DNA of 64,000 nucleotides from the NCBI RefSeq assembly GCF_036826855.1, contig NZ_CP104578.1, positions 6,173,501-6,237,500 of the forward strand. Direction: 5' to 3'. Below the pieces are notes generated by a model, which was not told where the DNA came from, searched no databases, and saw only the letters and a list, made by a program, of their open reading frames with translations. A program made the position numbers and the translations under genes. Position 1 is the stretch's first letter. Every line of letters starts with the position of its first letter. The stretch is from Streptomyces sp. SJL17-4. GTDB taxonomy: Bacteria > Actinomycetota > Actinomycetes > Streptomycetales > Streptomycetaceae. Below, piece by piece: positions 1,553-62,806 of the stretch.

Positions 1553-6839
<5,287 letters not shown>

Positions 6840-6853
<14 letters not shown>

Positions 6854-7358: not shown

Positions 7359-7365
7359 GGCGATC

Positions 7366-7371
7366 ACCGTA
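7366..7371 (-). promoter_or_regulatory. Likely leaderless -10 box of the GNAT gene
   Basis: The minus strand reads TACGGT, then 7 bases, then ATG. The match is to TAnnnT only; no convincing -35 is seen. Confidence 0.45.
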
Positions 7372-7412
7372 AGGCTGTGGCCAGACATCCGTAGAACCGG
7401 GGAGTGACCCTC

Positions 7413-8464: not shown

Positions 8465-8470
8465 ACGAAC

Positions 8471-8493
8471 AGCCTAACGTCGTCCGATACGCT
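8471..8493. promoter_or_regulatory. Divergent leaderless promoters (TetR / acidic membrane protein)
   Basis: Two TAnnnT boxes face apart in a 37-bp gap: TAGGCT on the minus strand (8471-8476) 6 bases from the TetR ATG, and TACGCT on the plus strand (8488-8493) 8 bases from the ATG at 8502. Polymerases on both could not bind together, so the two genes probably exclude each other or are repressed together. Confidence 0.5.
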
Positions 8494-8501
8494 CCTGCCC
8501 C

Positions 8502-9017: not shown

Positions 9018-9024
9018 GGCCCGT

Positions 9025-10976: not shown

Positions 10977-10982
10977 GGCGTC

Positions 10983-11002
10983 AATGTACTGAGGGGTACT
11001 GC
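10983..11002 (-). promoter_or_regulatory. Leaderless promoter of the diiron/reductase operon with CAGTAC direct repeats
   Basis: The minus strand shows TACATT (10983-10988) 6 bases before the ATG. The hexamer CAGTAC occurs twice, overlapping and just upstream of this box, 11 bases apart, a possible regulator site. Confidence 0.4.
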
Positions 11003-11116
11003 GGTGGCAACAGGGGCGTGCACGGTCTTTTCGGCCGGTGGGGGAGGGGACGCCCAGGCCGCCCCGCCTCTCTCCCCTGCCTCTCCCTCGCCTCCCACTC
11101 GCCTCCCACTCGCCAC

Positions 11117-13390: not shown

Positions 13391-14191
13391 TCACCCCGCG
13401 CGAACCGTCAGCCGCTCACGGATCCGCTCCGTCACCTCGTCCGCGACCCCGAGCCCCTCCCGTACGTACCGCTCCATCGACCCGTGCCGGACCGCCACTT
13501 CGTCGAGCGCCGCGTCCAGGTACTGCGGCAGCACCCCGATCAGATCGAGCGCCAGGTCCGGGTCGCCGCCCTGGGCCGTGAACCCCTCGATCATCGGCGC
13601 GAACGCCTGCCGTACGGCCGTGTTGACCGACAGATACTCCTCCCGCACGGTCTCCTCGTCCGCGCCGAGCAGCAACAGGACGACCGTCGCCGCCCACCCC
13701 GTCCGGTCCTTGCCCGCCGAACAGTGGAAGAGCAGCGGACCGGCGTCCCGAGCGCCCAGCTCGGTGAGGAGGGTGCGGTAGGCGAGCCGGGCGGACTCGC
13801 CGGAGACGAAGGCCCGGTACGTCCGGGCGAAGGCCGCCCGGACCTGGCCCCCGCCGAGGAGCTCCTCGGCGAGCGCCGGGTCGGTGAGCAGCGCCTTCAG
13901 GCGGGCGGCGGGCGGCAGCCCACTGGTGGCCAGATGGTCGGCGAGCACGTCCGCGACGAGGCCGTGGGCACCCGTGGGGAGCCGGTCGGGCCGGTCGGCG
14001 CGCTCGGTCTCCGTACGGAAGTCGACGACCGTACGGATGCCCAGCGCGGCCACGGTGGGCTCGGCCGGGTCGAGCCGGTCGAGCTGGGCGGAACGCAGGA
14101 CGAGGCCGGGACGGACGGAACGCCCGGCGGCGAGCGGCAGACCGCCCAGGTCACGGAGGTTGGCGACGGAGGTGGCGGGGATGGCGGGCAT
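13391..14191 (-). CDS. Tyrosine/serine protein phosphatase (Y_phosphatase3 type)
   Basis: 266 residues. The P-loop HCSAGKDRTG (156-165; catalytic C157, Arg163) defines a cysteine phosphatase of the dual-specificity class found in actinobacteria. NLRDLGG near the N-terminus and VVDFRTETE (about 55-63) are family hallmarks; the latter may carry the general acid. No signal peptide is seen, so it should be cytoplasmic. ATG 14191 is set by GGAGGA nine bases upstream. It is likely monocistronic: 129 bases separate it from the epimerase gene upstream. Confidence 0.88.
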   Translation of the reverse strand: MPAIPATSVANLRDLGGLPLAAGRSVRPGLVLRSAQLDRLDPAEPTVAALGIRTVVDFRTETERADRPDRLPTGAHGLVADVLADHLATSGLPPAARLKALLTDPALAEELLGGGQVRAAFARTYRAFVSGESARLAYRTLLTELGARDAGPLLFHCSAGKDRTGWAATVVLLLLGADEETVREEYLSVNTAVRQAFAPMIEGFTAQGGDPDLALDLIGVLPQYLDAALDEVAVRHGSMERYVREGLGVADEVTERIRERLTVRAG

Positions 14192-14320
14192 GACGTCGAC
14201 TCCTCCGGTACGTACACGTTCGTGTCGACCGTAGTGGATCGCCTCGATATAGGCAGTTTCAGCCACTCTTCGCGACGGCGCCCCGGCCACCCCGACCCAC
14301 CCCGACCCACCTCCCCCGTC

Positions 14321-15322
14321 TCACCCCTCCGCGAGCGCCGCCAACACCTCCGCCTCCCGCTCGGGCGAGAGCCCGACCTGCGGCCGGTCCGGGCGCTGGG
14401 GCGCCGCGCCCCCGATCGATTCCAGCCACGCCCACGTGTCCGCGACCGTCTCCGCCGCCGACCGGCAGCGCAGCCCCGTCGCGAGGGCGCGGGAGACGTC
14501 GGCGGCGTGCATCGCGTCGTACATCTCGCCCGGCGGCAGCCACACCGGCAGCTCCGACCACGGCGCGACCCCGGCCTTGACCAGCGCCTCCGAGTCGGTC
14601 CAGCGGAGTTCGGCGGCGGAGCCGGTGACCTGGACGCACGCGTCGAGCAGGTCGCCCATGGTCACGTGCCCGGGCGGCGAGACGAGGTTGTACGGCCCCG
14701 AGAGCCCCGCGGCCACCGCGTCGAGCGTCCACTCGGCCAGGTCGCGGACGTCGATGTACTGGACCGACAGCGCGGCGGGCCCGGGGGCGAGGACCGGGCC
14801 GCCGCGCGCGATCCGGCCCAGCCACCAGGGAAGCCGGCCCACGTTCTCGTACGGGCCGAGGATGAGGCCCGCCCGGACGAGCAGCGTCCGGTCCGCACCG
14901 AACGCGGCGGTGGCGGCGAGCTCGCCGCCCCGCTTGGCCTCGGCGTACGGCACGTCCCCGTCGTCGGCCGAACCCTCCACCAGCGGGCCGTCCTCGGCGA
15001 GCCCGGCCGCCGCCGGCCACGCGTACACCGAACGGCTCGACACATACGCGTACCGCCCGACCCGGTCGGCGAGCAGCCGCGCCACGTCCCGCACCGCGGA
15101 CGGTGCGGCCGACCAGGTGTCCACGACGGCGTCCCAGGAACCCGTCGCGAGGGCGGCGAGACCCTCCGGGCCGGTCGTGCGGTCACCGATCAGCGAGGTG
15201 ACCCCGGCGGGCGCGGGGTGCCGGCCGCGATGGAAGACGGTCACCTCCCAGCCCCGGTCGAGCGCCGCCTCGACGACCGCGCGGCCGACGAATTCCGTAC
15301 CTCCGAGCATCAGCAGTTTCAT
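14321..15322 (-). CDS. NAD-dependent epimerase/dehydratase family protein (extended SDR)
   Basis: 333 residues. The N-terminal GGTEFVG is an extended-SDR nucleotide loop (GxxxxxG form). YVSSRSVYAW (about 94-103) and a Tyr-x-x-x-Lys (YAEAK, about 124-128) fit the catalytic Ser/Tyr/Lys set. The C-terminal half shows the variable substrate domain of isoflavone-reductase/epimerase-like proteins. It probably reduces or epimerises a small nucleotide sugar or similar metabolite, but context gives no substrate. ATG 15322 was chosen because homologous proteins start at the nucleotide loop (MKLLMLGG); an in-frame ATG 24 bases upstream adds only eight residues. Confidence 0.85.
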   Translation of the reverse strand: MKLLMLGGTEFVGRAVVEAALDRGWEVTVFHRGRHPAPAGVTSLIGDRTTGPEGLAALATGSWDAVVDTWSAAPSAVRDVARLLADRVGRYAYVSSRSVYAWPAAAGLAEDGPLVEGSADDGDVPYAEAKRGGELAATAAFGADRTLLVRAGLILGPYENVGRLPWWLGRIARGGPVLAPGPAALSVQYIDVRDLAEWTLDAVAAGLSGPYNLVSPPGHVTMGDLLDACVQVTGSAAELRWTDSEALVKAGVAPWSELPVWLPPGEMYDAMHAADVSRALATGLRCRSAAETVADTWAWLESIGGAAPQRPDRPQVGLSPEREAEVLAALAEG

Positions 15323-15386
15323 GATCCGAGAGTGCCCGCTGCGCACCGCACGGGACCAGGGCTTTCGCTCCGAGGGGATTCCGCCA

Positions 15387-15465
15387 CGGGAGGAACGTCA
15401 TCGGTTCGGGAGGAAGGTCATCGGGCTCGGGAGGAAGGTCATCGGTTCGGGAGGGGGTCTCGTGG
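15387..15465. repeat. 20-21-bp tandem repeats in a promoter region
   Basis: Units of the form CGGGAGGAAGGTCATCGG(T/C)T begin at 15387, 15407 and 15428, with a decayed fourth unit from 15448. They lie between the divergent epimerase start and the Met/His-rich membrane protein start. The 20-21-bp period is two helical turns, so protein bound to successive units would lie on one face of DNA. Confidence 0.85.
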
Positions 15466-15496
15466 CCGAAATGCGGGGGTGACACCATGACGGGCG

Positions 15497-16201
15497 ATGA
15501 CGAATGCCCGGTCGCCCCTGCGCGCCTTGCGAGCCGCCCTGTTCGCGGTGGTGTGCGTGACCTTGGCTGCCGTGGGGCATTCGTTCATGTCCGCGCACCA
15601 GCTTCCGGCGCTCGCGCTGCTCGGCGCCTTCGCCGTGACGGCCGCCGCCGCATGGGCCGCCGCGGGCCGGCGCCGGGGCGCCCCGACGATCGCGGGCGCG
15701 CTGTTCGTCCTCCAGGGCGCACTCCACCTGCTCTTCTCGATGGCCGGTGCGCACGCCGGGGACACGGGGCACCCGACGGCGGCGGCCCCGAGCCGCATGA
15801 CTGGCACCCACGCGATGCACGGGACGACGGCCGCCGACGGCGCGGTCGGCATGACCGGCACGCACCACATGAGCAGCGCCCCCGGCACGGCGATGTCCAT
15901 GGACATGAGCAGCGGCATGCTCGCCGCCCACCTCCTCGCCGCGCTCCTCTGCGGCCTCTGGCTGGCCCACGGCGAGGCCGCGTTCCTCACCCTCGCCCGA
16001 GCCGCCCTCGCGTACGCCTTCACCCCCCTGCGACTGATCCTCGCGCGCGTGCGGGTCCCCGACGTCCCGCGCCGGACCATCCGCAGGGCGCGCCGCGCCG
16101 CCCACCGGCCGCACACCGTCGTCCTCGCGCACACGCTCTCCCGGCGCGGCCCGCCCCGGCTGTCCGTATCCCGCGCCAAGGCCCTCGGAGCACACGTCTG
16201 A
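15497..16201 (+). CDS. Met/His-rich membrane protein, possible copper-related
   Basis: 234 residues, unknown family. Four probable membrane helices are seen (about 11-30, 34-53, 60-78, 138-156). Between helices three and four is a loop of about 50 residues dense in Met and His (MTGTHAMHG, MTGTHHM, MSMDMSSGM), the composition of copper-binding loops in CopD/PcoC-like proteins. The C-terminal tail is Arg-rich and so probably cytoplasmic. The next gene is a PepSY protein with its own His-rich loop, 46 bases downstream. A metal-handling pair is plausible but unproved. ATG 15497 is chosen because it directly precedes the basic N-terminus and first helix. Confidence 0.75.
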   Translation: MTNARSPLRALRAALFAVVCVTLAAVGHSFMSAHQLPALALLGAFAVTAAAAWAAAGRRRGAPTIAGALFVLQGALHLLFSMAGAHAGDTGHPTAAAPSRMTGTHAMHGTTAADGAVGMTGTHHMSSAPGTAMSMDMSSGMLAAHLLAALLCGLWLAHGEAAFLTLARAALAYAFTPLRLILARVRVPDVPRRTIRRARRAAHRPHTVVLAHTLSRRGPPRLSVSRAKALGAHV

Positions 16202-50791: not shown

Positions 50792-52300
50792 TCAGAGCTC
50801 GCCGGCCGCCGTGCGCTCGGCCAGCTTCACCAGGGTGCGGACCGAGGAGCCGGTGCCGCCCTTGGGGGTGTAGCCGTACGGGGCGCCCTCGTGGAAGGCC
50901 GGGCCCGCGATGTCCAGGTGGGCCCAGGTGATGCCCTCGCCCACGAACTCCTGGAGGAAGAGACCGGCGACCAGGCCGCCGCCCATCCGCTCACCCATGT
51001 TGGCGATGTCGGCGGTGGGGGAGTCCATGCCCTTGCGCAGGTCCGCGGGGAGCGGCATCGGCCAGGACGCCTCGCCGACCTCCTCCGCGATCTCGTGGAT
51101 CGCGGAGCGGTAGTCGTCGTCGTTGGCCATGATGCCGAAGGTGCGGTTGCCGAGCGCCAGGACCATCGCGCCGGTCAGGGTCGCCACGTCGACGATCGCG
51201 TCCGGGTGCTCCTCGGAGGCCCGGGTCAGCGCGTCGGCGAGGACGAGCCGGCCCTCGGCGTCGGTGTTCAGGACCTCGACGGTCTTGCCGCTGTACATGC
51301 GCAGCACGTCACCCGGGCGGGTGGCGGAGCCGGACGGCATGTTCTCGGCGAGGGCGAGCCAGCCCGTGACGTTGACCTCCAGGCCGAGGCGGGCCGCGGC
51401 GACGACGGACGAGAACACGGCGGCCGCGCCGCTCATGTCGCACTTCATCGTCTCGTTGTGGCCGGCCGGCTTCAGGGAGATGCCGCCCGAGTCGTAGGTG
51501 ATGCCCTTGCCGACCAGGGCGAGGGTCTTCTCCGCCTTCGGGTGGGTGTAGCCGATGCGGACCAGGCGCGGCGGGTTCTGCGAGCCGACGCCGACACCGA
51601 GGATGCCGCCGAAGCCGCCCTTGGCGAGCGCCTTCTCGTCGAGGACCTGGACCTTGAGGCCGTGCTCCTTGCCGGCGGCCTGGGCGGCGGCGGCGAAGGC
51701 GGCCGGGGTCAGGTCGTTCGGCGGCATGTTGATCAGGTCGCGGGCGCGGTTGATCTCCTCGGCGACGGCCAGGGCACGCTCGGCGGCGGCCTTGTGGGCC
51801 TTGTCGCGCGGCTTGGCGCCGAGCAGGGCGACCTCGCCCAGCGGCTTCTTCGCGTCCTTGCCGTTCTCCTGGTACTGCGTGAAGGCGTACGCGCCGAGCA
51901 GGGCGCCCTCCGCGATGGCGGCGGCGTCCTCGGCGGCGTCGATCGGCAGCGCGAACGCGGCCTTCTTCGAGCCGTTCAGGGTGCGGGCGGCGACACCGGC
52001 GGCCCGGCGGAGGGTCTCCGCGCCGTAGGACGCGCCGTCCTCGGGGGCGGAGCCCAGACCGACGGCCAGGACGACGGGGGCCTTGAGGCCGGCCGGGGCG
52101 GGCAGCTTGGTCGCCTCACCCTCGGCACCCGAGGCGCCCAGCGTCTCCAGGACGGCGGCGAGCCGGCCGTCGAAGGCCTTGTCGACGGCCTCGGCGCCCG
52201 GGGCGACGACGAGCGTCTTCCCGGACTTCGCGACGCCGATGACGAGGGCGTCGGCGCGGAGCGTCGCCGCGCCGGCAGTGCTGAGAGTGAGAGCAGTCAC
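50792..52300 (-). CDS. pepA: Leucyl aminopeptidase (M17)
   Basis: Two-metal cytosolic aminopeptidase, 502 residues. The metal and active-site motifs are VGKGITYDSGGISLKP, MKCDMSGAAAV and the M17 signature NTDAEGRLVLADAL (about 335-348). The N-terminal domain is the usual alpha/beta macro-like fold. GTG 52300; the ribosome site is weak (GGAAGCGAGA is distant), and a TACGAT box (52367-52372 minus) could be its -10. Divergent from the exopolysaccharide operon. Confidence 0.96.
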   Translation of the reverse strand: MTALTLSTAGAATLRADALVIGVAKSGKTLVVAPGAEAVDKAFDGRLAAVLETLGASGAEGEATKLPAPAGLKAPVVLAVGLGSAPEDGASYGAETLRRAAGVAARTLNGSKKAAFALPIDAAEDAAAIAEGALLGAYAFTQYQENGKDAKKPLGEVALLGAKPRDKAHKAAAERALAVAEEINRARDLINMPPNDLTPAAFAAAAQAAGKEHGLKVQVLDEKALAKGGFGGILGVGVGSQNPPRLVRIGYTHPKAEKTLALVGKGITYDSGGISLKPAGHNETMKCDMSGAAAVFSSVVAAARLGLEVNVTGWLALAENMPSGSATRPGDVLRMYSGKTVEVLNTDAEGRLVLADALTRASEEHPDAIVDVATLTGAMVLALGNRTFGIMANDDDYRSAIHEIAEEVGEASWPMPLPADLRKGMDSPTADIANMGERMGGGLVAGLFLQEFVGEGITWAHLDIAGPAFHEGAPYGYTPKGGTGSSVRTLVKLAERTAAGEL

Positions 52301-52615
52301 GGTGGTGAAATCTCGCTTCCATTGAGTTCTGTGGCGGTCGAGGGATGGGCCGACCGTGCCCGCCGCATCGTATTTCGGCCCGGAGAGCGCCGAGAACGAG
52401 CCTACGCTCGCTCAACGGGTTCGCTCACGGCGGCGCCGATTCACTCATCCGTGGTGTCTCTTTCATGTTTACCGTTCTGGCTCGGAGTGCTCGTTCACAC
52501 TCGCCTCAGTCACGCAAGGACGACCCACTCGTCTTCGCACCATCTGCATCATCTCCACAGGTTCGCCGCCCCGGCCCCCGGTGCGCGGGGACCTGCCGAG
52601 GGGGGACACCACCTG
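52301..52615. other. 315-base divergent gap pepA / exopolysaccharide operon
   Basis: No gene. Candidate -10 boxes are TACGAT (52367-52372) for pepA on the minus strand and TACCGT (52470-52475) on the plus strand for the polysaccharide operon, which would give it a leader of about 135 bases. No operator is certain. Confidence 0.4.
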
Positions 52616-54724
52616 ATGGACTCCGGCCGAATCCGTACGCCCAGAAGCGCGCCCCGCACCCGTGGCGGCGCCCGCACCGCGCCCCGTACGGCTCCGCGTA
52701 CCGCCCGCGTCGCGGCACTCGCCGCCGCCGCGCTGCTCGCCACCGTCGTCCCGTCCGCGCAGGCCGTAGCGGCCCCCGTGCCCCGGGTCGACCTCACCGT
52801 CCTCGTCGTCGACGACGGCGGCAGCGCGGTCGGTGCGATCACCGCCGAACTGAAGGGCGCCGGCGTCCCGTACCGCAGGATCGACCTGAACGACCCGAAC
52901 CGGCCGGTCCTCGACACCGCCTTCCTCAGCGACACGCTCGACGGCCGCCCCCGCGCCAAGTACCAGGGCGTGGTCCTGCCCCACGAGACCGCGTTCGGCC
53001 CCGACTCGGCCGAGCACACCGCCCTCCAGGCGTACGAGCGGACCTTCGGCGTCCCACAGGTCGACGCCTACACGTGGTCGCACCCCGGCGTCGGCCTCGA
53101 CTACACGAACGAGGGCGGCTGGTCCGGCGTCCTCGACGGCACCACCGCCGGCATCACCGCCGCAGGGAAGGCGGGCCCCTTCCGGTACCTGGCCGGGGCG
53201 CTCACCTTCGAGGACAACGACCCCTCGATCGCCGAGAGCTACGGCTACGCGGGCCGCCCCCGGGCCGGCTTCACCAGCTACGTCGACGTGCCCGTCGACG
53301 GGGGTGGCCGGGCCAGCCTCGTCGGCGAGTACACCGCCGACGGGCGCCGCGAACTGGTCGTCACCTTCGCCTACAACCAGTACCAGCGGCAGTTCCGGGC
53401 CCTCGCCCGCGGCATCGTCGAATGGCTCACCCAGGGCGTCCACCTCGGCCAGAGCCGCAACTACCTCTCCGTGCACGTCGACGACGTCTTCGCCCCCGAC
53501 GCCCGCTGGGACACCGGACTCGACTGCACCCCCGGCGACTTCGACTGCGTCGGCGACGACGGAGAGGGCGCCGACCCGATCCGGATGACGGTCGCCGACG
53601 CCCAGTACGCCGCCGCCTGGCAGAAGTCCTCCGGCTTCACCCTCGACATGGTCTACAACGGCGGCCAGGGCGAGCAGTGGAAGGCCGAACACGGCGGCAC
53701 CGACCCGCTCACCGACCGGCTCGTCGCCGACCGCGCCCAGTACCGGTGGATCAACCACACGTACACCCATCCCTTCCTCGGCTGCGTCCAGGACAACGCC
53801 GTCGTCCCCTGGCAGTGCGCCAAGGACGCCTCGGGCAAGACCCTCTGGGTCAGCCGCGCCGAGCTGTCCGCCCAGATCCGCGACAACCACAACTGGGCCG
53901 TCCGCAAGGGCATCTCCGTCGACCGCTCCGAACTCGTCACCGGAGAGCACTCCGGCCTCAAGACCCTGCCCCAGCAGCCCGTCGACAACCCGAACCTGGC
54001 CGGCGCCCTCGCCGACAACGGCGTCAAGTGGACGGCCAGCGACAACTCCCGCGAACCGCAGCAACGGGCGCTCGGCACCGCCTCCGGCGCCGCGAAGACC
54101 GTGCCCCGCCACCCCATGAACGTGTACTACAACGTGGGCACCGCCGCCGAGATGACCGACGAGTACAACTGGGTCTACACCTCCCGCGCCGACGGCGGCA
54201 GCGGCATCTGCGAGTCCAACCCGGCCTCCACCTGCCTGCCCGCCCCGCTCCCCACGGCCACCGGCTACGCCGACCACATCGTGCCGCAGGAAGCCCGTAT
54301 CGCCCTCTCCCACGTCCTCGGCAACGACCCCCGGCCGCACTACGTGCACCAGTCGAACCTCGCCGAGGAGCGCCTGCTCTACCCCGTCCTCGACCGGGTA
54401 CTCGCCGACTACCGGGGCCTGTTCGCACCCAGCGCGCCCCTGGTGAACCCGGCCCAGCGGGACGTCGGCACCGAACTGACCCGCCGCGCGGCCTGGGACC
54501 AGGCCCTCGCCGCCGGAAAGGTCACCGCCTACCGCATCGGCACCGCCGTCACCGTCAAGGCCCCCGCCGGCGTCACCGTGCCCGTCACCGCCCCCGAGGG
54601 CACCCGCAAGCGCCTCCTCCTCGGCACCGCCGCCTTCGGGGCGCCGTACGCCGGGACCCGCTCCGCCTGGACCGCGCCCGAACCGCTCCAGACCAGCGTC
54701 ACACTCACGCTCCCGACCGCCTGA
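52616..54724 (+). CDS. Agd3-type (CE18) secreted polysaccharide deacetylase
   Basis: Predicted to remove N-acetyl groups from an amino-sugar exopolysaccharide outside the cell. 702 residues with an Arg-rich, unusually long signal peptide (cleavage about 45-55, SAQAVAAP). An N-terminal beta-rich domain (about 55-275) sits where Agd3 has its CBM87. The deacetylase domain carries HVDDVF (H287, D289, D290) and NHTYTHP (H381, H385), the metal-site pattern of NodB-like enzymes in the Agd3 form, then TGEHSGL. ATG 52616 follows GAGGGGGG by about 9 bases. First gene of an operon with a PelF-like transferase. Family name is by motif and recollection of Aspergillus Agd3. Confidence 0.85.
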   Translation: MDSGRIRTPRSAPRTRGGARTAPRTAPRTARVAALAAAALLATVVPSAQAVAAPVPRVDLTVLVVDDGGSAVGAITAELKGAGVPYRRIDLNDPNRPVLDTAFLSDTLDGRPRAKYQGVVLPHETAFGPDSAEHTALQAYERTFGVPQVDAYTWSHPGVGLDYTNEGGWSGVLDGTTAGITAAGKAGPFRYLAGALTFEDNDPSIAESYGYAGRPRAGFTSYVDVPVDGGGRASLVGEYTADGRRELVVTFAYNQYQRQFRALARGIVEWLTQGVHLGQSRNYLSVHVDDVFAPDARWDTGLDCTPGDFDCVGDDGEGADPIRMTVADAQYAAAWQKSSGFTLDMVYNGGQGEQWKAEHGGTDPLTDRLVADRAQYRWINHTYTHPFLGCVQDNAVVPWQCAKDASGKTLWVSRAELSAQIRDNHNWAVRKGISVDRSELVTGEHSGLKTLPQQPVDNPNLAGALADNGVKWTASDNSREPQQRALGTASGAAKTVPRHPMNVYYNVGTAAEMTDEYNWVYTSRADGGSGICESNPASTCLPAPLPTATGYADHIVPQEARIALSHVLGNDPRPHYVHQSNLAEERLLYPVLDRVLADYRGLFAPSAPLVNPAQRDVGTELTRRAAWDQALAAGKVTAYRIGTAVTVKAPAGVTVPVTAPEGTRKRLLLGTAAFGAPYAGTRSAWTAPEPLQTSVTLTLPTA

Positions 54725-54750
54725 CCAGCACGTTCTGGGGGGAACCGCAC

Positions 54751-56310
54751 ATGCCGAGCAGTGGCCGTCATGTCACCATGCTCACCGAAGGCACCTACCC
54801 GCATGTCCACGGCGGCGTCAGCACCTGGTGCGACCAGCTCGTCCGCGGCATGCCCGAGGTCGACTTCGAGATCCTCGCCCTCACCGGCAGCGGCCGCGAA
54901 CCCGTCACCTGGGAGCTGCCGTCCAACGTCACCCGGCACACCGCCTACGCCCTCTGGGGACTCCCGCAGGGTCCGACCGCGCCCGGCCTGTTCGCCGGAG
55001 CGCGCCGGCCCCTGCGGGGGCGTGAGCGCCGCCGCTTCCTCGACACCTACGAGCGCCTGCTGCTCGCCCTCCTCGACCCGGAGGCGGGCTACGACTTCGG
55101 CACCAGCCTGTACGAACTCGCCGAACTGGCCCGGCAGGGACGGCTCACCGCCGCCCTGCGCTCGGAGCCGGCCCTGCGCTCCCTGATGTGGATCTGGACC
55201 ATGCCGCATCTGCCGACGCTCGCGGCCCGGCCCACCGTCCACGACGCCCTCACCGCCACCGACCTGCTCGAACACGCCCTGCGGCCGCTGGCCGCCCGGA
55301 TATCCACCGACGGCGTCGCCCACGCCGTCTCCAGCGGCCTCGCCACCCTCCCGGCGCTCGCCGCACAGCACTTCGAAGGGGTGCCCTTCCTGCTCACCGA
55401 ACACGGCATCTACCTCCGCGAGCGCTATCTCGGCTACCGCACCGAGGCACAACGCTGGCCCGTCAAGGCCCTCATGCTCGGCTTCTACCGTGAGCTCAAC
55501 ACCCTCGGCTACCGCAAGGCCGACCTCATCACCCCCTGCAACCAGTACAACCGGCGCTGGGAGGAGCGCGGCGGCGCCCCCGCCGACCGCATCCGCACCG
55601 TCTACAACGGCGTCGACCCGGCCCTCTTCCCCGAGGCCGGCCCCGAGCCCGAGACCCCCACGCTCAGCTGGTGCGGCCGCGTCGACCCCATCAAGGACCT
55701 CGAAACCCTGATCAGGGCGTACGCCATCTGCCGCGCCGAACTTCCCGCGCTGCGGCTCCGGTTGTTCGGCCCGGTCCCCGCCGGGAACGAGGACTACCTC
55801 ACCCGCCTGGAGAAGCTCGCCGCCGAACTCGGCGTCACCGACGGGATCACCTTCGAGGGCCGGATCTCCGACGTGCCCAGCGCGTACGCGGCCGGCAGCG
55901 TCGTGATGCTCTCCTCCATCAGCGAGGGCTTCCCGTTCTCCCTCATCGAGGCCATGTCCTGCGGCCGCGCCACCGTCTCCACCGACGTCGGAGGGGTACG
56001 GGAGGCCGTCGGCGACACCGGGATCGTCGTCCCGCCCCGCGAACCGGCCGTGATGGCCGCCGCCGTCACCGCCCTCCTCAGCGACGGGGCCCGTCGCGCC
56101 GAACTCGGCCGACGGGCCCGGCAGCGGGTCATCGACCGGTTCACCCTGCACCGCTCGGTGGACGGCTTCCGCCAGATCTACCGCGAACTGGCGGGCGACC
56201 GGGTACGCCCCGAGGCGCGTCCCCAGGTCCGGCCGAAGCCCTGGCCGGCCCGACTCCCGGCCCCGCGCCGCATCACCCCGACCCTGGTAGCGGGAGGCAC
56301 CCCGGCATGA
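54751..56310 (+). CDS. pelF: PelF-type GT4 glycosyltransferase
   Basis: Cytoplasmic transferase expected to polymerise an amino-sugar from a UDP donor. 519 residues. The PelF signature is at the N-terminus (LTEGTYPHVHGGVSTWCDQLV, close to EGTYPYVxGGVSSW), followed by TEHGIYLRER and the GT4 C-domain motifs NGVDPALF, GRVDPIKD and the E-x7-E segment SEGFPFSLIEAMSCGRATVSTDVGG. GGGGGGA lies 8 bases before ATG 54751. It follows the deacetylase by 26 bases and overlaps the next gene by 4 bases (ATGA). The C-terminal 35 residues are Pro/Arg-rich. Confidence 0.92.
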   Translation: MPSSGRHVTMLTEGTYPHVHGGVSTWCDQLVRGMPEVDFEILALTGSGREPVTWELPSNVTRHTAYALWGLPQGPTAPGLFAGARRPLRGRERRRFLDTYERLLLALLDPEAGYDFGTSLYELAELARQGRLTAALRSEPALRSLMWIWTMPHLPTLAARPTVHDALTATDLLEHALRPLAARISTDGVAHAVSSGLATLPALAAQHFEGVPFLLTEHGIYLRERYLGYRTEAQRWPVKALMLGFYRELNTLGYRKADLITPCNQYNRRWEERGGAPADRIRTVYNGVDPALFPEAGPEPETPTLSWCGRVDPIKDLETLIRAYAICRAELPALRLRLFGPVPAGNEDYLTRLEKLAAELGVTDGITFEGRISDVPSAYAAGSVVMLSSISEGFPFSLIEAMSCGRATVSTDVGGVREAVGDTGIVVPPREPAVMAAAVTALLSDGARRAELGRRARQRVIDRFTLHRSVDGFRQIYRELAGDRVRPEARPQVRPKPWPARLPAPRRITPTLVAGGTPA

Positions 56311-58148
56311 GCGGCTCCCTGTGGCTGAAACCCCCGACCACCGAAACCCCACTCCCGGCGATCCCCCGCCCGCGCCGGGAACACACCCCGACCCGCCCGG
56401 GGAACCAGCCCCCCGACACGGCGCCCCCGGCCCCCGTCACAGCGCCCCCGGCCACCGGACCGGCCTCCGGCATCACGGCCGAGGCCACCGGGCCGGGGAC
56501 GGCGGCGGCCGGTGTGCCGACGACGGCGGCCTGGCCGGCGACGGCCACTGCCGCGGTGGCCGCGCCTGGGGTGGTGCCCGCCCCTGGCGTGGTGGCTGCT
56601 CCCGGCGGGGTGGCCGCCTCGGGCGTGGTAGCTGCCTCGGGCGTGGTGGCCGCTCCCGGCACAGCGGCCGCCCCCGGCCCCGCCACCGCCGTCGGCACGC
56701 CGGTCACCCCCGGCCCGGCCGCCGCACACGGCATCCGCCCGTACGCCGCCGGAGGCTCCCCGTACCCCGCCGGAGGCTCCCCGTACCCCGCCGGAGGCTC
56801 CCCGCACCCCGCCGGAGGCGAACTCGCCGGTGATCCGCTCGACGAGCTCGCCGAGCGGCTCGGGGGGTTCGTCGCCGTCGCCGTGCACCCCGACGAGATC
56901 GCCGCCGTCCTCGAGTCCGACGGCATGACCGACGACCACATCCGGCTCACCTACGGCCGCGCCGACTCCTTCGAGCTCGCCGAGGACCTCTACGCGCGCG
57001 TGGAGCGGCGCCACCCCGCCCCGGAGGTGCCGCCCGGCGGCGCCTGGCACACCGGGCTCGCGGGCTGTCTCCTGCGCGGGCTCGTCTTCGCGCTGCCCGG
57101 CCTCGCGTACGTCCTCGCCGCGCCGCTGCTCGCCGTGGAGCAGGGCCGGTTCGGGCTCCCGGGCGGAACGGTTCCGCTGCTCGCGGGCGCCGTCACCGGC
57201 TGGGTCTGGAACCAGGCCCTCGCCCACCGCGCGTACACCTGGCTGGGCCTCGGCGACCGGCCCGCCGCCGTCCGCGCCCTGCTCCTCGGGGCCCCGGCGG
57301 GCGCCCTCGCCGGTACGGTCGTCGCCCTCGCGGCGGCCGCGCCCGGCGAGACACCGGCGGCCCTGTTCGCCGCCGGGCAGGCGGTCTACCTCGCCGCCGC
57401 GACCGTGCCTCTCGTCCTCGGCCGCGAACGGGCCCTGCTCTGCGCCCTGATGCCGCTCGCCGGAGCCGTCCCCGCCTTCCGCTGGGACCTGCCCGACCTG
57501 CTGCGCGCCGGCCTCCTCCTCACCGCGCTCACCGCGAGCGTCACCTTCGCCGGGCTCGTCCTCCGGCCGGGTGCCCGGCCGGGCGCGGCGGGACGCGGCG
57601 GACCCCCGCGCGCGGCCTCCCTCCCGTACGGCCTCTTCGGCCTCGGCAGCGGTCTGCTCGTGCTCCAGGCGGGCATCGGCGACACCCTGGTGAGCGGCGC
57701 GGGGGCCGTCGTGGCGCTGACGCTCTCCATGGGGCCCGCCGAGTGGCTGCTGCACCGCTTCCGGGGCGAGAGCCTCACCCGGCTGCGGACCCTGGGCACC
57801 GCACGCGAGTTCCGCCGCGCGGTCACCGGCACCCTCGTGCTCTGTCTCGGCGGCTACCTCGGCGTCCTCGTCGCGCTCACCGTCGCCGTGACCCTGGCCT
57901 GGCCCGGGGCGCCCTGGCCGACGCTCCCGCGCCTCGTCACGCTGCTCCTGATCGGGACCGTGCTCTGGCTGGGGCTGCTGCTCCAGGCCTTCGGGGCGGT
58001 GCTCAGCGCGGCCGCCGTCTGTCTGCTCGCGGCGGCGGCGCAGACGCTGGAACCCGCGGCGGGCCCGGCGGCGGCCGGGGGAGCGGCGGCCGTGCTCGCC
58101 GTCCTCACCTGCGTCCTGCTGGTACGACCGACCGCCCACCGCGTCTAG
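56307..58148 (+). CDS. Large polytopic membrane protein of the PelF operon, low-complexity N-terminus
   Basis: 613 residues. Residues 1-185 are disordered Pro/Ala/Gly sequence with repeats (GVVAAPG/GVVAASG; AGGSPYP three times). A short helical segment (about 190-240, DPLDELAERLGGFVAVAVHPDEIAAVLESDG) follows, then about 10-11 membrane helices to the end. Its place, overlapping pelF by 4 bases, is that of PelG, the 12-helix partner of PelF in Pseudomonas, but I see no clear PelG motif. The likely role is export of the polymer or membrane docking of PelF. The N-terminal domain has no counterpart known to me. Confidence 0.8.
   Translation: MSGSLWLKPPTTETPLPAIPRPRREHTPTRPGNQPPDTAPPAPVTAPPATGPASGITAEATGPGTAAAGVPTTAAWPATATAAVAAPGVVPAPGVVAAPGGVAASGVVAASGVVAAPGTAAAPGPATAVGTPVTPGPAAAHGIRPYAAGGSPYPAGGSPYPAGGSPHPAGGELAGDPLDELAERLGGFVAVAVHPDEIAAVLESDGMTDDHIRLTYGRADSFELAEDLYARVERRHPAPEVPPGGAWHTGLAGCLLRGLVFALPGLAYVLAAPLLAVEQGRFGLPGGTVPLLAGAVTGWVWNQALAHRAYTWLGLGDRPAAVRALLLGAPAGALAGTVVALAAAAPGETPAALFAAGQAVYLAAATVPLVLGRERALLCALMPLAGAVPAFRWDLPDLLRAGLLLTALTASVTFAGLVLRPGARPGAAGRGGPPRAASLPYGLFGLGSGLLVLQAGIGDTLVSGAGAVVALTLSMGPAEWLLHRFRGESLTRLRTLGTAREFRRAVTGTLVLCLGGYLGVLVALTVAVTLAWPGAPWPTLPRLVTLLLIGTVLWLGLLLQAFGAVLSAAAVCLLAAAAQTLEPAAGPAAAGGAAAVLAVLTCVLLVRPTAHRV
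56748..56819 (+). repeat. Three 21-bp in-frame repeats (AGGSPYP)
   Basis: Units start at 56748, 56769 and 56790 (the last with Tyr to His), plus a 9-base partial. Confidence 0.92.
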
Positions 58149-58160
58149 GGGACCGGGCCC

Positions 58161-58778
58161 GTGAATCGTTTCCTCCTGGTGCCGTTCTACGAGCACCCGG
58201 CCGACCGGCCCGAGGCCTGGTCGGCCCTCGTCGAGGCGGCGCCGTCCCTGTACGGCGTAGTCGTCAACCCGGCGAGCGGCGCGGGCGACGCCCCCGACCC
58301 GGCGTTCGCCGACGCCGCCGACCGGCTACGGGCGGCCGGGGTCCGGCTCCTCGGCTACGTGGACACGGACTACGGGCGCCGCCCGCACGCCGAGGTCGTC
58401 ACCGATCTGCTCCGTCACCGCGACTGGTACGGCACGGACGGCGCCTTCCTCGACCAGGTCTCCACCGCGCCCACCGCCCTCGCCCACTACCGCAGGGTCG
58501 CGGTCGCGGCCCGGGCGGCGGGGGCCGTGACCCTGGTGCTCAACCACGGCGCCCATCCGGACCCGGGGTACGAGGAGTTCGCGGACCTCCTCGTCACCTT
58601 CGAGGGCCCCTGGGACACGTACCGGACGCTGGACCTGCCGGTCGCCCCCCACTACTGCCACCTCGTGTACGCGGCTCCGCCCGGCGTCCGCCCGGTCACC
58701 CCGGTGCACTGTGCCGTCCCCGGCACGGGCGCGCACCCCTGGGGCACCCTCCCGCACCTCCCGGAGCCGGCCCGCTGA
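58161..58778 (+). CDS. Spherulation-specific family 4 / Sph3-like (GH135) glycosidase
   Basis: 205 residues in a TIM-barrel pattern: LLVPFYEHP (strand one), GVVVNPASGAGD, LLGYVDTDYG, TDGAFLDQVS and LLVTFEGPWD. These match the conserved acidic blocks of spherulin-4 proteins, whose Aspergillus member Sph3 cleaves deacetylated galactosaminogalactan. No signal peptide or anchor is visible, unlike fungal Sph3, so it may act inside the cell or leave by another route. GTG 58161 follows AGGGGA; it is 12 bases after the previous stop, so last gene of the operon. Confidence 0.85.
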   Translation: MNRFLLVPFYEHPADRPEAWSALVEAAPSLYGVVVNPASGAGDAPDPAFADAADRLRAAGVRLLGYVDTDYGRRPHAEVVTDLLRHRDWYGTDGAFLDQVSTAPTALAHYRRVAVAARAAGAVTLVLNHGAHPDPGYEEFADLLVTFEGPWDTYRTLDLPVAPHYCHLVYAAPPGVRPVTPVHCAVPGTGAHPWGTLPHLPEPAR

Positions 58779-58799: not shown

Positions 58800-59564
58800 T
58801 CACCCCAGGGCGAGCGCCACCAGCGCCGTCGTCGCCGCCGTCTCCTCCACCGCTCCGAACACGTCCCCCGTCACCCCGCCGAACCGCCGTACGCACCGGC
58901 GCAGCAGCGCCGCCGCCGCCCCCAGCGCCGCGCCCGCCGCCAGGACGTAGTGGACCGCGTCGTACGGGGAGAACAGCAGGCCCGTCGCCGCGAGGAGGAC
59001 CAGGACGACCGCCGTCGAGAGCGTCGCGGACCGGACCGGGACGGTCGCGGCGACGATCGCGCCGAGGCCCTCGGGGCGGGCCGCGGGGACGCCGTGGCGG
59101 GAGGCGTGGGTGAGGGCGAGGCGGGCGACGGTCGCGGCGAGGACGGCGCCGACCGCGCCGTGCGCCCAGCTCTCCCCGTACAGCTCGAAGAGCGCGGCGA
59201 CCTGGGCGAACAGGACGAGGAGCAGCACGATGACGCCGAACGGGCCGACGTCCGACTGCTTCATGATGCGCAGCGCGTCCTCGGCGGGCTTGGCGCTGCC
59301 GAGCCCGTCGGCGGTGTCGGCGAGGCCGTCGAGGTGGAGGCCGCGGGTGAGGACGGCGGGCACGGCGGTGGAGACGACGGCGGCGAGCAGCGGGCCCGAG
59401 CCGAGCGCGAGGAACGCGCCGCCCAGCCCGGCGGCGAAGAGTCCGACGACCAGACCGGCCAGCGGGGCGCAGAGCATGCCGGTGCGCGCCGTGTCCCGGT
59501 CCCAACGGGTGATGCGGGTGGGGAACACGGTGAGGGTGCCGAAGGCGAAACGCAGGCCGTCCAT
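58800..59564 (-). CDS. cobS: Adenosylcobinamide-GDP ribazoletransferase
   Basis: Membrane enzyme that joins alpha-ribazole to adenosylcobinamide-GDP, the last step of cobalamin assembly. 254 residues starting MDGLRFAFGTLTVFP. The HLDGLADTADGLGS motif (about 75-88) binds metal and is diagnostic. Five or more membrane helices. ATG 59564 lies 6 bases after a minus-strand TACCCT box, suggesting a leaderless message; upstream in-frame ATGs (59606, 59633) cover the opposing promoter. The partner gene cobT is 3.3 kb away. Confidence 0.95.
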   Translation of the reverse strand: MDGLRFAFGTLTVFPTRITRWDRDTARTGMLCAPLAGLVVGLFAAGLGGAFLALGSGPLLAAVVSTAVPAVLTRGLHLDGLADTADGLGSAKPAEDALRIMKQSDVGPFGVIVLLLVLFAQVAALFELYGESWAHGAVGAVLAATVARLALTHASRHGVPAARPEGLGAIVAATVPVRSATLSTAVVLVLLAATGLLFSPYDAVHYVLAAGAALGAAAALLRRCVRRFGGVTGDVFGAVEETAATTALVALALG

Positions 59565-59570
59565 CGGGGC

Positions 59571-59615
59571 AGGGTAATCGCCGCCTCCGGACGGTAGATT
59601 GCGCATATCGCGCAA
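59571..59615. promoter_or_regulatory. Divergent control region cobS / His-rich membrane protein
   Basis: TACCCT (59571-59576 minus) is a likely leaderless -10 of cobS. TTGCGC-atatc-GCGCAA (59599-59615) is a perfect 6+5+6 inverted repeat, 16 bases before the plus-strand ATG. No cobalamin riboswitch elements are seen. Confidence 0.5.
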
Positions 59616-59631
59616 ATCGGAACGGGGTGGC

Positions 59632-60396
59632 ATGGGTCACTGGTTCTCCCGCAACATCGTCGAGCCGGGCAAGCTCCCGATGCTTCTCGCGCTGACCTCG
59701 TTCATCGTGACGTTCCTGGTCACGCGGACCATCGTCCGTCTCATCCGGGCGGGGAAGGGGCCGTTCGGAAACGTCTCCTCCGGCGGTCTCCACATCCATC
59801 ACGTCGTGCCGGGCGTGGTCCTCACGATCATCGGCGGTTTCGGTGCGGTCGGCAGCGACCGGCACGGGATCGGCGGGGCCGTCTTCGCCGTCGTCTTCGG
59901 GATCGGCGCGGGGCTCGTCCTGGACGAGTTCGCGCTGATCCTCCATCTCGACGACGTGTACTGGAGCGACGAGGGCCGCAAGAGCGTCGAGGTGGTCGTC
60001 CTCACCGCCGCCCTGGTCGGGCTCACCCTGAGCGGTTTCTCGCCGCTCGGTGTCGACGACATGACCGCCGACGAACGCCAGGACCGGGCCACCTTCATCC
60101 TCACCCTGGTGGTGAACTTCCTCTTCATCCTCATCACGCTGGTGAAGGGGAAGTTCCGGATGGCGGTGATGGGGACCCTGATCCCGTTCGTGGCGATCGT
60201 CGGCGCCGTCCGGCTCGCCCGCCCCGGCTCCTGGTGGTCCCGCCGGTTCTACGGGCGCCGCCACCGGGCACGGGCCCGCTCCCGGCTCCGTACGTACCGC
60301 CACGACAAGCGCTGGAACAGGATCCGGCGCCGTACTCAGGACTTGATCGGCGGCTTCCAGGAGCGGGTCCCCGGACGGGGTTCCACGCCCTCCTGA
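59632..60396 (+). CDS. Polytopic membrane protein with HIHH motif
   Basis: 254 residues, no family named. Five probable membrane helices lie between about 15 and 205, with a HIHHVVPG motif at about 56-63 and an acidic DEFALILHLDDVYW segment (about 98-112) that could together bind metal. The C-terminal 55 residues are very basic (RRFYGRRHRARARSRLRTYRHDKRWNRIRRR). GGGGTGG precedes ATG 59632. The last 61 bases overlap the convergent rhomboid-like gene, so the two mRNAs could pair. Confidence 0.78.
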   Translation: MGHWFSRNIVEPGKLPMLLALTSFIVTFLVTRTIVRLIRAGKGPFGNVSSGGLHIHHVVPGVVLTIIGGFGAVGSDRHGIGGAVFAVVFGIGAGLVLDEFALILHLDDVYWSDEGRKSVEVVVLTAALVGLTLSGFSPLGVDDMTADERQDRATFILTLVVNFLFILITLVKGKFRMAVMGTLIPFVAIVGAVRLARPGSWWSRRFYGRRHRARARSRLRTYRHDKRWNRIRRRTQDLIGGFQERVPGRGSTPS

Positions 60397-61046
60397 CCGC
60401 GCTCGCGCCAGGCCTGGATCCCCATCAGGACGAGGACGCCGGCGATGGCCGCGAGATGCTCCTTGCCCGCCAGGTTCGGCTTGATGATCACCTCGACGAC
60501 CATCGCCACCACCACGAGCGTGCCCGTCCACCGGGCCCCGTACCGCCAACAGACGTAGACGGCGAGGCCGACCACGGCCGCCGACGGCCCGGTGTCGACG
60601 ACCTGCGCGTCGGTGGCGGGCAGCCCGAGCGGGGTGTCCGGGCCGAGCGCGATGCCCACGCGCGCGTACAACGTCCCGCAGAGGGTGGCCAGATAGGCGA
60701 CGGCGAGTGTCCGCCACCGCCCGAGACAGGTCTCGGCGATCCCGAAGACCAGCAGGACCTGTGCGAGGGCGCCCCACACGGGCAGGTCGAGCGCGGGCAC
60801 GAACAGCGAGAGCGGAGTCCGGAGCAGCGCCAGCCAGAACGGGTCCTCGGCCCGTACGGAGCCGATGTTCTGGACCGGCTGATAGCCCCAGTCCTGGTTC
60901 TGCACCAGCTGGAAGAGGGCGGTGAGACAGACGGCGGCGAGCGTCATGGGGACCGCCCGCCACTTCTTCGTGAGAAGCGCGCTCCGTACGGTGAGGAACA
61001 GCGGGCCCCACTCGCGACGGGCGAACTCCCGGAGGGCGCGGTTCAA
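60336..61046 (-). CDS. Rhomboid-like membrane protein
   Basis: 236 residues with six to seven membrane helices. GPSAAVVG (possible catalytic Ser) and EHLAAIAG (possible catalytic His) are spaced as in rhomboid proteases, though the usual GxSG is GPSA. The TTG at 61046 is taken as start: GGAGAG lies 6 bases upstream and the codon overlaps the TGA of the upstream lysyltransferase gene (TTGA). Co-translation with the MprF-like gene suggests joint work in the membrane. Confidence 0.75.
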   Translation of the reverse strand: MNRALREFARREWGPLFLTVRSALLTKKWRAVPMTLAAVCLTALFQLVQNQDWGYQPVQNIGSVRAEDPFWLALLRTPLSLFVPALDLPVWGALAQVLLVFGIAETCLGRWRTLAVAYLATLCGTLYARVGIALGPDTPLGLPATDAQVVDTGPSAAVVGLAVYVCWRYGARWTGTLVVVAMVVEVIIKPNLAGKEHLAAIAGVLVLMGIQAWRERGQEGVEPRPGTRSWKPPIKS

Positions 61047-62806
61047 CGGCCGCTCTCCAGATGCCTGCGGTGCAGCCACTTCGGGAGCCCCGGAGCCTCC
61101 AGGAACCCCTCCGCGCGACCGGCCGCGAGGCCGATGCGCAGCAGGTCCGCACTCTTCTCGAAGAGCATGAATCGGGGCTCCCAGATCGGTCGGTACTTGG
61201 CGTTGGCGCGGTACAGCGACTCGATCTGCCACCAGCGGGAGAAGAAGCTGAGCAGCGAACGCCACATGCGCAGTACGGGTCCCGCCCCGAGCTTCGAGCC
61301 ACGTTCGAAGACGGACCGGAACATCGCGAAGTTGAGCGAGACCTGAGTGATCCCGATCTCCTTGGCGCGCTGGAGGAGTTCGATGACCATGAACTCCATC
61401 AGGCCGTTCTCGGACTCCCGGTCCCGGCGCATCAGATCGAGCGAAAGCCCCTTCGGCCCCCAGGGGACGAAGGACAGCACCGCCCGCAGCTCACCGTCCC
61501 CGTCCGTGCACTCCAGCATCACGCACTGTCCGTCCCGCGGATCCCCGAGCCGCCCGAGCGCCATCGAGAAGCCGCGCTCGGTCGCTCCGTCCCGCCAGTC
61601 GTCGGCCTTCCGCAGCAGCTCGGCCATCTCCTCGGCCGGGATGTCCTCGTGGCGCCGGATCCTGACCTCGTACCCGGCCCGCTTGACCCGGTTGAAGGCC
61701 TGCCGGACCGTCCGCATGGCCCGCCCGTCCAGGGTGAACTCGTCGGTCTCCACGATGGCCTCGTCGCCCAGCTCCAGGGCGTCCAGGCCGTGCCGGGCGT
61801 AGATGACCCCGGCCTCCTCGCTCGCGCCCATCACCGCCGGGATCCAGCCGTGCTCGCGCGCCTCGGCCAGCCAGGGTTCGATGGCACCCGGCCAGGCCTC
61901 GGGGTCGCCGATCGGGTCGCCGGAGGCCAACGACACCCCGCCGACCACCCGGTAGGTGACGGCGGCCTTCTCGCTCGGCGACCACACGACGCTCTTCTCG
62001 CGGCGCAGCGCGAAATAGCCCAGCGAGTCGCGGTCCCCCTGCTTGTCGAGCAGGGCCCGCAGCCGCTCCTCGTCCTCCTCGGTCAGCGGGTCGGTGGCCC
62101 GGCGGGAACGGAAGGCGGCGAACAGCACCGCGAACAGCAGCAGCGTGGACAGGACGTTGATGGTGACGTCCACCCAGCCGGGGGTGGTGATCCCGGCGAA
62201 CCGCGAGTCGTCGGTGGCCAGGGTGATCAGCCGCATCACGCCGTACCGCCAGCGCTCCAGGAAGGTGGAGTGGGCGGTGGAGGTGTTGGTGACGGTGACC
62301 AGGACGGCAGCGAGCAGCGAGGTGACGAGCAGTCCGCCGACCGCGACGACCGCGGCGAGCCACGGGTTGGAGCGGTCGCCCTTGGCGTAGAACTCCTTGC
62401 GGCCCAGCAGCAGCGCGAGCACGAACGCGGCGGTCAGGACCAGCGAGATCCAGTTCTGGGCGTGCTGCCGGATCTCCGGGAAGAACATCACCAGGGCGAA
62501 GAGCAGCAGGAACAGACCGCCGAGCACCAGGTTGAGGATCCACGCCGCGCGCTTGCGCCGTCGCATGGTGATCGCCAGGAAGAGGGTGAAGACCCCCGAG
62601 GCGAAGCCCGCCGTGAGCATGTACGGGGTGAAGTAGTTGTCCTCGTTGTGGCGGCGCAGGTCCTGCCCGAAGGAGACCCAGACGGCGCTCAGGAAATTGA
62701 TGAACGTGACGACGCGCAGGTACCAGACGGCGAACGCGGCGCTGCGCCGTGAACGGGCGGTCGTGCCCCGGGGTGCTGCTTCGGCAGACAAGCGGACTTC
62801 TCCCAT
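61043..62806 (-). CDS. MprF-like phosphatidylglycerol lysyltransferase (membrane protein, LPG synthase domain)
   Basis: Predicted to transfer an amino acid from tRNA to phosphatidylglycerol or another lipid and flip it, lowering surface charge. 587 residues: six to seven N-terminal helices (about 25-245), a linker, and a C-terminal DUF2156/LPG-synthase domain (ALRREKSVVWSPSEKAAVTYRVVGGVSLASGDPIG; LSFVPWGPKGLSLDLMRRD; GITQVSLNFAMFRSVFE). No lysyl-tRNA synthetase domain as in mycobacterial LysX. ATG 62806 lies 8 bases after TATGAT; a TTG at 62791 after GGGAGAA is an equally good start. Coupled to the rhomboid-like gene. Confidence 0.88.
   Translation of the reverse strand: MGEVRLSAEAAPRGTTARSRRSAAFAVWYLRVVTFINFLSAVWVSFGQDLRRHNEDNYFTPYMLTAGFASGVFTLFLAITMRRRKRAAWILNLVLGGLFLLLFALVMFFPEIRQHAQNWISLVLTAAFVLALLLGRKEFYAKGDRSNPWLAAVVAVGGLLVTSLLAAVLVTVTNTSTAHSTFLERWRYGVMRLITLATDDSRFAGITTPGWVDVTINVLSTLLLFAVLFAAFRSRRATDPLTEEDEERLRALLDKQGDRDSLGYFALRREKSVVWSPSEKAAVTYRVVGGVSLASGDPIGDPEAWPGAIEPWLAEAREHGWIPAVMGASEEAGVIYARHGLDALELGDEAIVETDEFTLDGRAMRTVRQAFNRVKRAGYEVRIRRHEDIPAEEMAELLRKADDWRDGATERGFSMALGRLGDPRDGQCVMLECTDGDGELRAVLSFVPWGPKGLSLDLMRRDRESENGLMEFMVIELLQRAKEIGITQVSLNFAMFRSVFERGSKLGAGPVLRMWRSLLSFFSRWWQIESLYRANAKYRPIWEPRFMLFEKSADLLRIGLAAGRAEGFLEAPGLPKWLHRRHLESGR

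Follow-up and report, generated by a model that had tools for sequence, protein, structure and literature searches.

Organization of the locus

The 64,000-nucleotide stretch analyzed here (the window) is part of the single-contig genome of Streptomyces sp. SJL17-4 (8,543,434 bases), whose nearest named relatives were Streptomyces. Four consecutive genes in it encode an Agd3-like polysaccharide deacetylase, the glycosyltransferase PelF, a multi-spanning membrane protein, and a Sph3-like GH135 protein (Table 1). A sequence-only reading of the window had described a compact operon of four same-strand open reading frames (ORFs) at 52616–58778, and the coordinates and junction sequence confirmed its gaps of 26, −4, and 12 bases, the overlap being an ATGA shared by the pelF stop codon and the membrane protein gene. 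Neither a sigma-70-like promoter nor a terminator was found in a scan at the operon. There was no PelD or PelE within the four-gene operon, which pepA and cobS flank; the rest of the genome was not searched for PelD. A UDP-sugar epimerase (Uge3) and a GH114 enzyme (Ega3) were also absent from the four-gene operon; sugar-nucleotide genes or GH114 were seen only in the sibling and distant loci described below.

Table 1. Features of the operon and its borders (positions in the window)
Feature	Position	Strand	Description
agd3-like gene	52616–54724	+	702 aa; CE18-related polysaccharide deacetylase
pelF	54751–56310	+	519 aa; GT4-family glycosyltransferase, DUF3492 and Glycos_transf_1
membrane protein gene	56307–58148	+	613 aa; variable proline/alanine/glycine-rich N-terminus, small helical domain, predicted 12-helix exporter of the multidrug/oligosaccharidyl-lipid/polysaccharide (MOP) fold
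exporter N-terminal helical domain	56829–57026	+	conserved; model residues 1 to ~66; candidate PelF-coupling domain
MOP-superfamily (MATE/WzxE/MurJ-like) transmembrane region	57036–58148	+	model residues 70–439
sph3-like gene	58161–58778	+	205 aa, GTG start; GH135 (Spherulin4), no signal peptide
intergenic region, divergent pepA/operon	52301–52615		presumed promoter region
pepA (leucyl aminopeptidase)	50792–52300	−	upstream boundary of the fixed site; 667.5 bits, cut-off 432
cobS	58800–59633	−	convergent downstream boundary of the fixed site; PF02654, 154.9 bits, cut-off 23.2

Conservation of gene order at a fixed address

In a scan of named genomes, 493 stretches encoded relatives of the deacetylase, and the best 80 were used, all of them from Streptomyces, a choice that favored close relatives. 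Gene order was counted in the 68 of these 80 loci that extended at least 4.3 kb downstream, the other 12 being shorter. The order agd3-pelF-membrane protein gene-sph3 on one strand was found in 62 of the 68 loci; three of the other six had no sph3 match, two had agd3 alone, and one had agd3-sph3. All four genes were still visible in 2 of the 12 loci with less than 4.3 kb downstream. The neighborhood was thus conserved, and a scattered arrangement within the genus, which would have spoken against the sequence-only reading, was rejected. The four-gene set is not a chance association.

The pepA gene lay upstream in the opposite orientation in all 80 loci, and cobS lay downstream in 66; 13 loci ended too soon and one (L120) had no cobS. 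Among 25 genomes of the genus (this one and 24 others, including G001), agd3 was present at the pepA site in 12, another 12 had cobS but no agd3 on that side of pepA, and the site ended at a contig border in one (G008). The distance between pepA and cobS in the 12 agd3-free genomes was less than about 360 bases in 10 and 1.1–1.3 kb in the other two (G019 and G011). This presence or absence at a fixed pepA–cobS address indicated that the operon is an old resident, gained or lost there, and a mobile island at this place was rejected. Close homologues occur in S. venezuelae and S. exfoliatus, and the whole operon was seen in the latter (L057). When genomes from across the class were searched with a profile, the deacetylase turned up in 26 of 394 genomes, representing 6 of 137 genera.

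PelF and the membrane protein

PelF matched the NCBIfam equivalog NF038011 with 164.9 bits (cut-off 100), in agreement with its earlier assignment. Relatives of PelF at E ≤ 1e-60 were present in 171 of 199 sampled Streptomyces genomes, many of the matches being to a paralogue with about 46% identity. The operon-type PelF (at least 73% identity, one partial) was present in 55 of these genomes and the type of the sibling clusters described below (60–68% identity, two partial) in 44, with one or the other in 82. A second pair, PelF2 and membrane protein 2, was encoded in the same genome at L049 (G000:C1:3088000-3107999; about 6472–11075 on the minus strand, that is, about 3.094–3.099 Mb), adjoining an Epimerase-family gene. 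PelF2 was a GT4 protein with DUF3492 that scored 82.3 bits, below the PelF cut-off of 100. Membrane protein 2 had, by eye, the same N-terminal domain motif as the membrane protein of the operon, and its transmembrane stretch was related (98.3%). Orthologues of PelF2 (62–65%) also adjoined their membrane protein in both other genomes checked (L205 and L206). In the protein database, a single case (P0274) had the C-terminal half of a PelF-like transferase fused to the exporter family, which recalls a one-protein transferase-exporter.

The membrane protein of the operon had no Pfam match, and a PDB sequence search with its family profile returned nothing. Its structural model (predicted local distance difference test, pLDDT, 90.6) showed a predicted MOP-superfamily fold plus an extra N-terminal domain. 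PelG is a member of the MOP superfamily with 12 helices (PMC13254593). The protein encoded beside PelF is predicted from its model to be a MOP-superfamily exporter and the functional counterpart of PelG. The sequence-only reading had noted that PelF works with PelG; PelG was absent here by sequence, its family PF16933 giving no match at E ≤ 1e-5 in this genome, and the predicted MOP-fold exporter stood in its place. One Streptomyces genome (G208) had a PelG match, with 30.9 bits (cut-off 29). A viral relative of the membrane protein by fold was rejected, as there was no match with E ≤ 0.001. In the open-access passages searched, we did not find a MOP-fold assignment of the membrane protein of agd3 operons.

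The homologues of the exporter ranged from 420 to 673 aa. Its N-terminal domain had helices at 3–17, 21–30, 35–42, and 47–57 (model numbering), and L28, E29, G32, Y42, and F48 of this domain were invariant over 70 aligned sequences. We infer that the domain couples the exporter to PelF. The N-terminus of the protein (window 56307–56826) was rich in proline, alanine, and glycine and had, by eye, short PYPAGGS-type repeats.

The deacetylase

When the deacetylase was used as a single sequence to search the PDB, the best match had E = 0.067. A family profile made from seven sequences matched the solved Agd3 structure 6nwz at E = 1.2e-8, all others having E ≥ 0.14. The Agd3 family PF25115 was present in the precomputed annotation of a number of close homologues, and the score against CBM87 was 11.5 bits (Pfam). 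The name Agd3-like given by the sequence-only reading was therefore sustained by the family profile, and the Pfam model alone left it below threshold (see below); by these comparisons the deacetylase is related to Agd3 only distantly. The CE18 motifs (defined in PMC7229062) CM1 (DD), CM2 (HxxxH), CM3 (R), and CM4 (H) were all found, and D289, D290, H381, H385, R479, R484, H575, and H578 were invariant in all 80 named loci. R479 or R484 is the candidate residue of CM3, and H575 or H578 that of CM4. An N-terminal hydrophobic stretch at about residues 33–53 suggested that the deacetylase is exported. The AlphaFold2 model was poor (pLDDT 47.7), the 26 sequences aligned for it being close relatives; Foldseek with this model ranked 6nwz first (E = 3.5e-11, template modeling score 0.25), which lent weak support.

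The GH135 protein and its location

The product of the last gene matched Spherulin4 (PF12138) with 97.4 bits (cut-off 30.2) and the Sph3 crystal structure 5c5g at E = 7.3e-9, so that its assignment as a Sph3-like GH135 protein held. The sequence-only reading had spoken of galactosaminogalactan (GAG)-type hydrolases in the plural; of the two fungal-type enzymes, this fits the GH135 protein alone, because Agd3 is a deacetylase. D98 was kept in 64 of 64 loci and E148 in 63, the exception being L120, where the gene was broken over several frames. These residues aligned with an Asp and a Glu of 5c5g that are spaced 56 residues apart, a spacing which suggests that the pair corresponds to D166 and E222 of Sph3. 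The D166A variant of Aspergillus clavatus Sph3 is inactive (PMC8546845), and Glu222 is named as catalytic in PMC12054363, where the other residue is printed as Asp196.

The distance from the end of the membrane protein gene to the codon of GH135 residue 1 was at most 44 bases in 59 of 64 loci, which is too short to accommodate a signal peptide unless the start lies inside the preceding gene. In 10 of the 64 loci the frame stayed open for at most 210 codons after the upstream stop, so that a start inside the preceding gene was also excluded. The GH135 gene of the window had no earlier in-frame start, and its protein begins VNRFLLVPFYEHP. Because the protein was leaderless in 59 of 64 loci, it is probably cytoplasmic. 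A cytoplasmic GH135 enzyme would meet fully acetylated polymer, because deacetylation happens outside, and Sph3 is specific for the fully acetylated polymer (PMC12054363). Given an acetylated substrate inside the cell, we propose that GH135 acts there as a fail-safe or sets the length of the chain. Ega3, the GH114 relative, is specific for deacetylated regions (PMC7229062); these specificities would fit GH135 inside and, outside, the GH114 protein of the distant locus L046, the only GH114 protein seen, which had by eye a lipoprotein-like leader. A treatment of a leaderless GH135 was likewise not found in open-access text.

Sibling clusters and eroded operons

The same core was found away from the pepA–cobS site at seven loci (L040–L045 and L048). 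In the three resolved ones (L040, L042, and L048), genes for a LegB-like 4,6-dehydratase, a nucleotidyltransferase, and a further epimerase lay between the membrane protein gene and sph3; against TIGR04180 the dehydratase reached 449.8 and 451.5 bits, slightly short of the cut-off (475). The distant locus L046 had the order agd3-pelF-membrane protein-nucleotidyltransferase-epimerase-GH114. At five loci from other families, we found agd3-pelF-polytopic ORF-sph3 (L190, the polytopic ORF being assigned by position, with no tblastn match), pelF-membrane protein-LegB-nucleotidyltransferase-epimerase-sph3-agd3 (L192), agd3-pelF-membrane protein-nucleotidyltransferase-epimerase (L193), pelF, membrane protein, and two sph3 genes on one strand with agd3 on the other (L191), and, on a short contig, membrane protein, sph3, and agd3 matches only (L194).

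In seven genomes the compact operon was incomplete, with agd3 alone (L036 of G016, L098, and L126), agd3-sph3 (L097), or no sph3 match (L088, L099, and L110). A sibling-type pelF (62–65% identity) was present in all seven, as against 14 of 50 genomes with an intact operon, the latter representing 50 of the 64 four-gene loci (Fisher p = 4.4e-4; leaving out G016, which belonged to a different sample, p = 1.2e-3; shared ancestry was not corrected for). L120, a Streptomyces tuirus record included above among the intact operons, had membrane protein and sph3 matches at about 13774–15815, split over several frames, and no sibling cluster; the frame breaks reflect either damaged genes (pseudogenes) or sequencing errors. 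Counting L120 as eroded weighs against the pattern (7 of 8 vs 14 of 49, p = 2.7e-3). In G016, the sibling agd3 (L048, 9753–10220, minus strand) was a 155-aa ORF without the catalytic domain and the compact site (L036, 8482–10518) kept agd3 alone, a natural reciprocal loss. These results suggested that parts of the compact cluster can stand in for those of the sibling cluster and vice versa, and that the two therefore make a similar polymer.

Elsewhere in the window, 61043–62806 on the minus strand encoded a 587-aa lysyl-phosphatidylglycerol synthase-like protein with an LPG_synthase_C domain and without the tRNA-ligase half; it matched the first 572 of 1102 LysX positions with 663.2 bits (cut-off 742).

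Interpretation

Taken with the conserved gene order, these assignments support the earlier view of a Pel/GAG-type exopolysaccharide system: the locus is likely to be a compact operon of this type, without PelD and PelE, for a cationic adhesive polymer. PelF would polymerize a UDP-N-acetylhexosamine in the cytoplasm, most likely UDP-N-acetylgalactosamine (UDP-GalNAc) from genes elsewhere. The MOP-fold exporter, in the place of PelG and linked with PelF by way of its additional N-terminal domain, would move the chain across the membrane. Outside, the secreted or membrane-tethered Agd3-like enzyme would strip some of the acetyl groups and make the polymer cationic and adhesive, and the leaderless GH135 enzyme would stay inside and cleave chains that are still fully acetylated and have been mis-exported, become stuck, or grown too long. 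Without PelD and PelE in the operon, control by cyclic di-GMP, if any, must act otherwise. What the data establish is the order of the genes, their families, the active-site residues, the predicted fold, and the conservation; the substrate, the transport, the coupling domain, the adhesive function, and the place and task of GH135 are inferred. The galactosamine content and the possible hyphal adhesion put forward by the sequence-only reading are hypotheses, and its word "minimal" would be true only if the sugar nucleotides come from elsewhere; the sibling clusters carry such genes.

Several results weigh against this interpretation. Against Pfam Agd3_CE (PF25115), the deacetylase scored 21.2 bits, under the cut-off of 27.6. 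Foldseek with the membrane protein model gave a best E of 1.6e-3, with template modeling scores of 0.37–0.49 in the top 14 rows, so that the VIA second look is the main basis of the MOP match. No sequence homology between the membrane protein and PelG was detectable, and the idea was rejected: none of 70 family members matched PelG, and a profile comparison, covering only four PelG sequences, gave 0.2% probability. Gene order was looser outside the genus, with agd3 on the opposite strand in L191 and last in L192. In addition, the LegB-like 4,6-dehydratase of the sibling clusters means that the sugar could be something other than plain GalNAc.

A deacetylated polymer of a different or modified N-acetylhexosamine (based on N-acetylglucosamine, or 4-keto/6-deoxy), for which the specificity of the Agd3 and GH135 relatives would have shifted, would draw on that dehydratase together with the sugar-1-phosphate nucleotidyltransferase and epimerase of the sibling clusters, and on the distance of the deacetylase from Agd3. 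However, the characterized Sph3 and Agd3 act on an alpha-1,4-GalNAc polymer (PMC12054363 and PMC7229062), both catalytic sets were conserved, and the compact operon itself had no sugar-modifying gene; we regard this alternative as unlikely. Occupation of one fixed address and a wide distribution in the genus would suit a structural trait, and the product might be a wall- or spore-associated galactosamine glycan and not a free adhesive matrix. Yet none of the four genes matched a wall-ligation or spore family, and the 12 of 25 genus genomes without agd3 at the site argue that it is no basic wall component, which makes this possibility somewhat more doubtful still. That the cluster serves the uptake or degradation of a foreign GAG/Pel-like polymer is highly improbable, since, although a deacetylase and an endo-hydrolase related to GAG-type enzymes are among its products, PelF and the MOP-fold protein are parts for synthesis and export, a leaderless hydrolase is ill-suited to digestion outside, and there was no importer among the four genes.

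If the reading as a compact Pel/GAG-type operon for a cationic adhesive polymer is true, the four genes at one locus, with natural non-carriers, would provide a genetic handle on the sticking and pelleting of filamentous bacteria, the exporter of agd3 operons would be named, and the role of a GH135 enzyme inside the cell would become testable. More tentatively, and with some doubt, the operon might form a branch of its own among the synthase-dependent machines for cationic exopolysaccharides. Such a branch would pair PelF with a non-PelG-like MOP exporter having a dedicated N-terminal coupling domain, a domain that would recur in the second pair of PelF and exporter within these genomes; it would lack PelD and PelE, and the location of its hydrolase would follow acetylation, with GH135 inside and GH114 outside.

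Comparison with known systems

The combination has been reported before: Bamford (2020; PMC7229062) described bacterial agd3 operons with a cytoplasmic glycosyltransferase and a multi-spanning membrane protein, and spherulin-4 in those of some Actinobacteria, a feature shared with our operon. The same paper cited a galactosamine-containing polysaccharide from Streptomyces that was not tied to genes. GH114 co-occurrence is described there as highly consistent, whereas the compact operon here had GH135 only. The section of that paper on agd3 operons does not assign the membrane protein, the location of GH135, a fixed address, or a sibling cluster, and its figure or supplements may already depict this operon type; what looks new is the assignment of the exporter, the absence of a leader on GH135, the fixed address, and the pattern of sibling clusters. 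Within the same genome, the PelF2 pair shares the DUF3492 GT4 protein and the membrane protein, and neither a deacetylase nor a GH135 gene was seen beside it by Pfam on the neighboring ORFs.

Gram-positive Pel operons have been described (PMC7112168 and PMC7112194). Shared with pelDEA(DA)FG of Bacillus cereus are PelF, a MOP-superfamily exporter (here predicted), and an extracellular three-domain deacetylase (PMC7112168 and PMC13254593). The B. cereus system has PelD, a cyclic di-GMP receptor, and PelE, whereas the Streptomyces operon has neither; the Streptomyces exporter has no sequence relation to PelG and carries the extra N-terminal domain. The deacetylase is Agd3-like, whereas PelADA belongs to CE26 (no PelADA sequence was compared), and the hydrolase is GH135, unlike in B. 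cereus Pel.

With the GAG cluster of Aspergillus fumigatus (uge3, sph3, gtb3, ega3, and agd3; PMC4817252 and PMC7229062), the operon shares an Agd3-type deacetylase, a Sph3-type GH135 enzyme, and a glycosyltransferase with membrane export. The fungal cluster has Uge3 and Ega3, of which the operon has no counterpart. Fungal Sph3 is membrane-bound and is proposed to lie outside by Gtb3, preventing clogging (PMC12054363), whereas the Streptomyces GH135 is leaderless. Fungal Gtb3 is one integral membrane transferase, whereas PelF and the exporter are separate genes. The fungal GAG cluster may go back to a bacterial ancestor of this operon type, the transferase and exporter having later become one protein, and our reading, if right, bears on the proposed bacterial origin of that cluster.

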